Below, piece after piece: positions 48,554 through 50,023 of a DNA stretch of 64,000 nt. The DNA comes from Anaerorhabdus furcosa (GTDB lineage Bacteria > Bacillota_I > Bacilli_A > Erysipelotrichales > Erysipelotrichaceae). The stretch covers positions 186,001 to 250,000 of the forward strand of contig NZ_FUWY01000003.1 of assembly GCF_900167375.1 (NCBI RefSeq). Direction: 5' to 3'. A program made the translations under genes and the position numbers. Each line of letters starts with the position of its first letter. Positions within the stretch are counted from its first letter, which is position 1. The notes under the pieces were generated by a model. It ran no database searches, was not told the DNA's origin, and saw only the letters and a list, made by a program, of their open reading frames with translations.

Positions 48554-49867
48554 TTAGTTTTGTTCTGTTTTTGTTACGATAGCTTTTTCTATACGGTAAT
48601 GTTTTATTTCAACGATCTCTATTTCTAAGTGATATTCATTCAAACTGAACTTTGCTCCAACTTTTGGTAGTTCTTCAAATGTTCCAAAAACAAACCCTCC
48701 AAACGTATCATATGTATCTGTTGGCAAACTTATCTCTAATTCTTCAGCAACATCTTCTAGACTTGCATTACCTATAATTTCCCAGGCATTATTTGATATC
48801 TTCGTTATTTCTTCCTCATTTTTTTGATAGATATCATTTTCTAAATCACCCACTAATTCTTCTAGTAAATCATTCATCGTAATAATACCAAACATACCAC
48901 CATATTCATCTAATACAACCGAGAAATGATTTTTTGTTAATCGCATTTTTTTGAACAGAACATCTGCAGTCATTGTCTCTAAAGCATATTGTGCTGGATG
49001 AATCAATGTATTCACAACCAACTCTTTCGTTTTATTTTTAAGTCTAAAATATTCTTTAATGTTTAAAACACCTACGATGTGATCAACTGTTCCATCACAC
49101 ACTGGGTAAGTTGAATAACGACTTGTCTTCATTTCTTCTTCCCAGTCTTCTAAACTACCTGAGATATCCAATGCTCTAACATCCAAACGATGTGTTGCGA
49201 TTTCTGATAATTCAGTATCATTGAATTCGAATACATTTTGAATCATTTCTTTTTCTTCTTCTTCAATAACACCTTTTTTATTTCCAATATCAACCATCAT
49301 TCTTATTTCTTCTTCACTCACTTCTTCATCTTCTTGATTAGGATCAATACCAAGCAATCTCAAAATTCCATTTGTGGAAGCTGTTAATGCCCATACAATT
49401 GGTTTGAATAAATTTGATATTGAAGTGATTAACGCTGACATACTTAAAGCTAACTCTTCTGCTTTTTTCATTGCCAAACGCTTTGGAACCAACTCTCCAA
49501 ATACCAATGTAAAGTAAGAAAGAATCAATGTAATCACAATGACTGAAATCGTATCCAACGTAGCTACTGGTAAATTCACCCCTACGCTTAGTAACCAATC
49601 CACCAACATTTCTGAGAAGTTATCCGCAGCAAATGCACTACCTAAAAATCCAGATAATGTAATTGCTACTTGAATGGTTGCTAAAAACTTTGCAGGTTGA
49701 TCTGTAAGTTTTTTTAAACGGATTGCCTTTTTATTTTTTTCATTAACTAGTTGTTCTAGTTTGGCATCATTCATTGATATAACTGCAATTTCAGCACATG
49801 CAAACACTGCATTTAATAATATCAAGAATGCTTGTAATAATAATTGAAAAATTAACTGACTACTCAT
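48554..49867 (-). CDS. CNNM/CorC family transporter (DUF21-CBS-CorC_HlyC)
   Basis: 437 residues in the usual three-part order: a DUF21 membrane domain with three or four helices (about 1-185; NAVFACAEIAVISMND, VTLSGFLGSAFA), a CBS pair (about 205-330; YSTYPVCDGTVDHIVGVL, SVVLDEYGGMFGIITMNDLLEELVG read in parts), and a C-terminal CorC_HlyC domain (about 350-435; DTYDTFGGFVFGTFEELP). Relatives are implicated in Mg(2+) efflux or resistance and sometimes Co(2+). ATG at 49867 has GGAGG four bases upstream; the 27-base longer frame is ignored. Upstream lies an unusual leader with a short ORF and hairpin. Confidence 0.9.
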   Translation of the reverse strand: MSSQLIFQLLLQAFLILLNAVFACAEIAVISMNDAKLEQLVNEKNKKAIRLKKLTDQPAKFLATIQVAITLSGFLGSAFAADNFSEMLVDWLLSVGVNLPVATLDTISVIVITLILSYFTLVFGELVPKRLAMKKAEELALSMSALITSISNLFKPIVWALTASTNGILRLLGIDPNQEDEEVSEEEIRMMVDIGNKKGVIEEEEKEMIQNVFEFNDTELSEIATHRLDVRALDISGSLEDWEEEMKTSRYSTYPVCDGTVDHIVGVLNIKEYFRLKNKTKELVVNTLIHPAQYALETMTADVLFKKMRLTKNHFSVVLDEYGGMFGIITMNDLLEELVGDLENDIYQKNEEEITKISNNAWEIIGNASLEDVAEELEISLPTDTYDTFGGFVFGTFEELPKVGAKFSLNEYHLEIEIVEIKHYRIEKAIVTKTEQN

Positions 49868-49886
49868 ATTTCCTCCACAAAATGAA

Positions 49887-49922
49887 AAACACACAAAAAT
49901 CTATCATTGATAGTGTGTGTTT
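49887..49922 (-). promoter_or_regulatory. Attenuator-like hairpin in the CorC-family leader
   Basis: Outer stem AAACACAC / GTGTGTTT and inner stem CTATC-ATT-GATAG with an internal A/T-rich bulge, followed on the minus strand by TTCATTTT. It starts at the stop codon of the 15-codon leader ORF and ends about 20 bases before the transporter start, with no room for another promoter between. Confidence 0.6.
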
Positions 49923-49968
49923 AATTTAAATATTGATTGTGACATTTCTGCCAACTATCTTCGTCCAT
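49921..49968 (-). CDS. Possible 15-residue leader peptide
   Basis: ATG to TAA encodes MDEDSWQKCHNQYLN. AGGAGAG lies about nine to eleven bases before the ATG and about 20 bases after a near-consensus -10. The acidic run Asp-Glu-Asp directly after Met resembles nascent chains known to destabilise ribosomes at low Mg(2+), as described for the E. coli mgtL leader. Too short for any homology claim; treated as a putative regulatory uORF. Confidence 0.5.
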   Translation of the reverse strand: MDEDSWQKCHNQYLN

Positions 49969-49994
49969 TTATTAGTTCTCTCCTAATTGATATA

Positions 49995-50023
49995 TTTATA
50001 GTATAAATTCAGGATAATGTCAA
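49995..50023 (-). promoter_or_regulatory. Near-consensus promoter of the CorC-family gene
   Basis: TTGACA (50023-50018), 17-base spacer, TATAAA (50000-49995). Start of transcription near 49988 gives a leader of about 120 bases. The -35 overlaps the end of the HAD phosphatase gene. Confidence 0.8.

Follow-up and report, generated by a model that had tools for sequence, protein, structure and literature searches.

A predicted acidic leader peptide conserved upstream of CNNM/CorC-type transporter genes, and a candidate attenuator in Anaerorhabdus furcosa

The gene encoding a CNNM/CorC-type cation transporter of Anaerorhabdus furcosa is preceded by a short open reading frame with an acidic start, and the comparison of orthologous loci indicates that such predicted acidic leader peptides upstream of CNNM exporter genes are real, conserved in the class and more general than was first noted. 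The locus is located in a stretch of 64,000 nucleotides (positions 186,001 to 250,000 of contig NZ_FUWY01000003.1), which was analysed as a whole and is referred to here as the window. In the window, the leader ORF runs directly into a terminator-like hairpin, and we see about an even chance that the leader acts as a ribosome-mediated attenuator for an exporter of divalent cations, most likely of Mg2+.

The genetic organization of the locus is summarized in Table 1. The sequence-only reading had described a promoter, a Shine-Dalgarno sequence, a 15-codon ORF, a hairpin starting from the stop codon, a T-rich tail, a second Shine-Dalgarno sequence and the start of the CNNM gene, and all of these elements are present on the minus strand. 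The locus accordingly shows a predicted short ORF with initiation signals of its own upstream of a predicted cation transport gene. The predicted leader peptide begins with Met-Asp-Glu-Asp (MDED) and contains neither a proline residue nor a run of regulatory codons. The gene upstream of the CNNM gene is located on the same strand and encodes a Cof-type HAD hydrolase; about 98 nt separate its end from the hairpin, and transcripts reading through from it would likewise cross the hairpin.

Table 1. Features of the window around the start of the CNNM gene, and the conserved RNA of family f2
Feature	Position	Strand	Remark
-35 box TTGACA	50018..50023	minus	overlaps stop codon of upstream HAD hydrolase gene
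-10 box TATAAA	49995..50000	minus	17-nt spacer to -35 box
Shine-Dalgarno sequence of leader ORF, AGGAGAG	49978..49984	minus
Leader ORF MDEDSWQKCHNQYLN, 15 codons + TAA	49921..49968	minus	ATG at 49968; acidic residues 2-4
Terminator-like hairpin	49887..49922	minus	5' arm from second base of leader stop codon
T-rich tail TTTTTCATTTT	49879..49889	minus	3' side of hairpin
Shine-Dalgarno sequence of CNNM gene, GGAGG	49872..49876	minus
CNNM/CorC-type cation transporter gene, 437 aa	48554..49867	minus	N-terminus MSSQLIFQLLLQ, without acidic residues
Conserved RNA of family f2	L176:1328-1445, L179:1321-1444, L181, L183, L185		R1 model matches L256-L285

According to Pfam, the transporter encoded in the window is composed of CNNM, CBS and CorC_HlyC domains. 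The nearest solved structures are 7m1u and 7m1t, which are deposited as hemolysin with CBS domains and which we take to be archaeal CorB (PMC8242095). Among NCBIfam equivalogs, the polyamine exporter PaeA comes nearest, with a match below the cut-off. The stretch of the relative L086 that corresponds to the N-terminus listed in Table 1 reads MDDPLIGQLLLQ. Additionally, a second CNNM paralogue (L002, G000:C3:56863-58071) is present in the same genome, and a candidate uORF with a TTG start (MDDSPIPIRLREN...) is located about 146 nt upstream of it; this candidate is also acidic and is uncertain because of overlapping frames.

As a single genome stands for the genus, the conservation of the leader ORF was followed through the GTDB family, the order and a sample of the phylum. 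By fixed criteria, an acidic uORF was detected in 41 of the 116 CNNM 5' regions, compared with an acidic uORF preceded by a Shine-Dalgarno sequence in 3.4% of dinucleotide shuffles of such regions and in 9 of 202 other genes of the CNNM loci that served as a control. In many genera a short acidic-start ORF is located immediately upstream of the orthologous CNNM gene, with leader starts such as MTEDSSDERW, MSDDGSDERK, MNDDTGCDQRW, MNDDPGDADR, MENSDQDSYPKR, MDEDSSGIIPCC and MTEDSEGCDR, and the leaders of other families of the class start with MEDSSSGQRTT, MDDTSSGQRTI, MEDNSCGQRTI, MEDSNPRSS or MEDCSSRIDD. The peptides, ranging in length from 14 to 53 codons, share little past this acidic and serine-rich start, which is often followed by R or C. 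Aspartate and glutamate account for 43% of the residues at positions 2-6 of about 50 leaders and for 11% of those at later positions, a contrast that stems in part from the selection of the set. Within related groups, the differences in codons 2-9 were distributed as 42/54/111 over codon positions 1/2/3 in pairwise counts that are not independent of each other; the third position is thus about twice as variable as the first two, as expected under selection on the peptide. The protein tree contains a clade with 25 uORFs among 27 CNNM proteins, and at least eight changes of uORF status are required on the tree as a whole. The check for conservation among relatives that had been proposed from the sequence alone consequently turned out in favour of the leader, which is kept in position and acidity among the orthologues. 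An accidental origin of the short ORF is rejected on the basis of this conservation together with the shuffle and neighbour-gene controls.

Acidic residues at the beginning of a nascent chain destabilise the translating ribosome, most strongly at low Mg2+, a phenomenon termed intrinsic ribosome destabilisation (PMC11282234). In the case of MgtL, the leader peptide of mgtA in Escherichia coli and Salmonella, the drop-off of the ribosome at low Mg2+ decides on transcription (PMC11282234). MgtL (MEPDPTPLP...) resembles the predicted leaders described here in being a 17-codon peptide with an acidic start ahead of a Mg2+ transport gene. MgtL differs in that it is Rho-dependent, makes use of alternative RNA folds and switches an importer on upon abortion of translation, whereas the window combines an intrinsic-type hairpin placed directly on the leader stop codon with an exporter-type CNNM protein that would be switched off by abortion. 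A further difference concerns proline, which adjoins the acidic residues of MgtL (EPDP) and is absent from the leader of the window; in the leaders of some relatives, proline stands beside acidic residues (DDP or EDP). For MgtQ, the leader of Salmonella mgtB, the proline codon is reported not to be required (PMC8092293), so that proline appears to be a feature of MgtL and not of this class of leaders. MgtQ shares with the leaders the early acidic residues, Asp2 and Glu5, that destabilise the ribosome and control a Mg2+ transporter encoded downstream, but it acts on translation by means of alternative stem-loops and is switched on at low Mg2+ (PMC8092293).

Among the systems described, CorC/YbeX and MgpA/YoaE are likewise CorC-domain cation efflux proteins. 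The N-terminus of CorC/YbeX is reported to contain a destabilising sequence, high Mg2+ induces corC and mgpA of Salmonella, and loss of the YoaL start codon lowers the translation of MgpA, with a regulatory mechanism of CorC/YbeX and YoaL-MgpA that the authors called unclear (PMC12421838). The start of CorC/YbeX of E. coli (MSDDNSHSSD) is close to leaders such as MSDDGSDERK, and YoaL (MDRHRRHFS) overlaps the start of yoaE as coupled uORFs do, but YoaL is not acidic beyond Asp2. Moreover, both systems belong to Gammaproteobacteria, and a terminator hairpin is not described there. Attenuators of the trp type also consist of a leader ORF followed by a terminator hairpin, with the position of the ribosome being decisive; they differ from the window, in which neither regulatory codons in a run nor an antiterminator hairpin were detected and for which occlusion by a ribosome at the stop codon is proposed instead. 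The sequence-only reading knew of no described system of this form for corC genes in Bacillota. None was found for Bacillota in the literature searched, but close enteric relatives exist in the form of the CorC/YbeX N-terminus, YoaL, MgtL and MgtQ. With its clustered early acidic residues, the leader of the window can be placed among the acidic leaders that destabilise the ribosome, as a new form in which ribosome drop-off itself would be expected by analogy.

The hairpin of the window has a predicted free energy of -11.7 kcal/mol, with z-scores of -3.5 for a 46-mer and -2.3 in a longer frame, and belongs to the best 0.44% of 2500 T-tract sites sampled across the window. It is AT-rich and of modest stability, and it was not flagged by a simple terminator scan. 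Over its full length of 133 nt, the leader is no more structured than its shuffles (z -1.0), and its predicted fold contains neither an antiterminator nor another competing helix. An Rfam search of the whole window returned a tRNA as the sole match and nothing relevant in the leader at E-values up to 2; a known riboswitch was detected by Rfam neither in the leader of the window nor in those of 20 related loci, and RF00080 had no match in the genome of the window.

A comparable arrangement was identified in L085, a sister lineage with 53% identity, in which a 14-codon acidic uORF, MNDGDSSHNVIFKT with its stop codon, is followed by a 16-bp hairpin with a T-tract (-18 kcal/mol), as well as in four g30 species with the leader MSSTEDPGRSC... 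and hairpins of about -15. The hairpin form is probable for L160, which represents the same gene as L211 and has the leader MSDDCDSNCRIALVLRE. In the window, in L085 and in g30 the end of the uORF and the CNNM gene are 53-66 nt apart, and the terminator hairpin with its T-tract is located in between. The earlier proposal of a leader combined with a hairpin is thereby supported as far as the conservation of the acidic ORF and the repeated leader-plus-terminator layout are concerned, and the recurrence of this layout in L085 and g30 argues that it is not due to chance. In the protein tree the window pairs with L085 (95/88), g30 adjoins lineages with an acidic N-terminus and L160 is placed elsewhere; since these places are scattered, the architecture with uORF and hairpin probably arose more than once. 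The leader ATG of L085 and of L088-L091 follows a predicted -10 box at a distance of only about 6-14 nt and has no Shine-Dalgarno sequence, and these leaders may be translated from leaderless or nearly leaderless mRNA.

The register of stop codon and stem is the same in the window and in L085, where the last two nucleotides of the leader stop codon lie within the stem. A ribosome at the stop codon was modelled as covering 10-14 nt from the first base of this codon. For the window, the predicted folding energy of -12.6 was thereby reduced to values between -5.6 and -3.8, and for L085 that of -21.0 to values between -6.0 and -4.3; the stem was lost in both predictions. In g30, the core stem begins 7-10 nt past the stop codon and is predicted largely to survive the occlusion, being weakened just in part, which indicates that the occlusion step is not general.

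With respect to the position of the acidic residues, the CNNM genes can be divided into three architectures. In the first one, to which most uORFs belong, only a few bases lie between the uORF end and the start of the CNNM gene, and this ATGA-type overlap suggests translational coupling. The second comprises CNNM genes without a uORF, whose proteins usually begin with acidic residues themselves, as in MDSIPRQ, MDTDPAG, MDDPQG or MDPEPSH. In the third, a hairpin and a T-tract follow a uORF of 14-17 codons, as found in the window, in L085, in the four g30 species and probably in L160. A uORF and an acidic N-terminus tend not to occur together: a uORF precedes 31 of the 39 CNNM genes with non-acidic N-termini, compared with 10 of the 51 with acidic ones, six of these ten having a lone glutamate; after correction for relatedness, four independent pairs against one (p 0.375) follow the expected direction and are not significant. 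In L085 a uORF occurs together with Asp2 in the CNNM protein, and the acidic N-termini of CNNM proteins could instead serve membrane topology. Acidic starts occur widely across the family: in Armatimonadota, Chloroflexota and other groups (L023, L028, L033, L034, L037, L038 and further loci), CNNM proteins have GTG or TTG starts and open with acidic residues and proline, e.g. MDEDPNRIL and MDPDPNRI. Furthermore, the ORF of the long coupled leaders of genus g8 (L118, L147) includes an inner hairpin, AAGGGCA...TGCCCTT with T's behind it, at about -52 to -33 relative to the CNNM start; this hairpin is possibly another element acting at the level of transcription.

These architectures lead to the following model for the window. 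Transcription would start just 5' of the 15-codon leader ORF, the translation of which would yield a nascent chain starting with Met-Asp-Glu-Asp, of the type that destabilises ribosomes. At a low level of the ribosome-stabilising cation, the ribosome would tend to abort within the first leader codons, leaving the RNA behind the RNA polymerase free to fold into the hairpin, and transcription would end before the exporter gene. When the cation is plentiful, the leader would be completed and the ribosome would be positioned on the stop codon, with which the 5' arm of the hairpin begins; the blocked hairpin could not fold, the polymerase would read through and the exporter would be made. Relatives might reach the same output by a leader stop codon that overlaps the exporter start, thus by coupling, or by acidic residues in the N-terminus of the exporter. 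In each of the three architectures, a ribosome that fails to get past the acidic residues could only diminish the output of exporter, since the coupling, the protein itself or the ribosome that keeps the terminator open would be lacking. The comparative anatomy therefore favours an exporter that would be off when the cation is scarce and on when it is abundant, a sign opposite to that of MgtL.

The strongest competitor of the attenuator model, although unlikely, is that the leader ORF merely assists initiation as a ribosome landing site for translational coupling, with an acidic start that senses nothing and a hairpin that sets the expression level as a constitutive partial terminator. The short overlap, of a few nucleotides, between most related uORFs and the CNNM start is the usual layout for coupling, and the hairpin of the window is weak. 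However, pure coupling requires no acidity, and the acidity of residues 2-6 kept across otherwise unrelated peptides of widely differing length, along with the excess of changes at the third codon position, counts against this explanation, as does the hairpin-containing gap between uORF and gene in the window, L085 and g30.

It appears distinctly improbable that the sign corresponds to that of MgtL, with abortion at low Mg2+ blocking termination and turning on a transporter that serves as importer or in adaptation to low Mg2+. The acidic leaders MgtL (PMC11282234) and MgtQ (PMC8092293) do act in this way, but the predicted fold of the window provides no alternative antiterminator that competes with the hairpin, and in relatives with an overlapping uORF or an acidic N-terminus abortion could only switch the gene off. 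Moreover, the induction of CorC-type genes of Salmonella by high Mg2+ (PMC12421838) and the riboswitch-like leader of an f2 orthologue, also found before efflux-type genes for MntP-like proteins and a P-type cation pump, speak against this sign. Least probable of all is a terminator of the HAD hydrolase operon next to an accidental ORF, which fits the strand and proximity of the HAD gene but not the promoter that precedes the hairpin, so that the CNNM gene's own transcripts cross it, nor the enrichment of uORFs over controls, and which was rejected since L085 and L088 keep the uORF-hairpin layout with the upstream gene on the opposite strand, so that the hairpin belongs to the CNNM transcript.

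With regard to the cation that the attenuator would sense, the CNNM orthologues of family f2 are informative. They have no acidic uORF, and a conserved structured RNA, GGGAGUAG...CGUCACCACGC...AACGAGAC with a terminator, is located upstream of the CNNM gene instead. Copies matching the R1 model of this RNA precede genes for MntP-like proteins, CaCA-type exchangers and P-type cation ATPases, as judged by reading their sequences. RF00080 did not recognise the RNA upstream of CNNM in the genomes of family f2, and covariation is slight among the seven close sequences. By its architecture and gene contexts the RNA looks like a divergent yybP-ykoY Mn2+ riboswitch, and these contexts support the efflux of divalent cations, with Mn2+ being possible. 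Taken with the PaeA match below the cut-off, this RNA leaves Mg2+, Mn2+ and a polyamine as candidates, of which Mg2+ is the best guess by analogy because the leader type responds to Mg2+.

The ways by which Gram-positive bacteria turn on cation exporters are poorly known. Somewhat more tentatively than for the window itself, we propose for the Bacilli as a whole that an acidic nascent-chain sensor sets CNNM exporters on at high cation, as a mirror of MgtL, and that this sensor may have moved repeatedly among the N-terminus of the exporter, a leader overlapping its start and a leader with its stop codon embedded in a terminator, with a related family adding or substituting a divergent RNA that resembles an Mn2+ riboswitch. 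If this is true, ribosome stability would serve as a sensor for uptake, as in MgtL and MgtQ, and for export alike, with opposite wiring, and a simple leader of 14-16 codons ending in a terminator would suffice for this task. The putative destabilising peptides exist in dozens of natural versions, which may moreover allow the sequence rules of such leaders to be defined.
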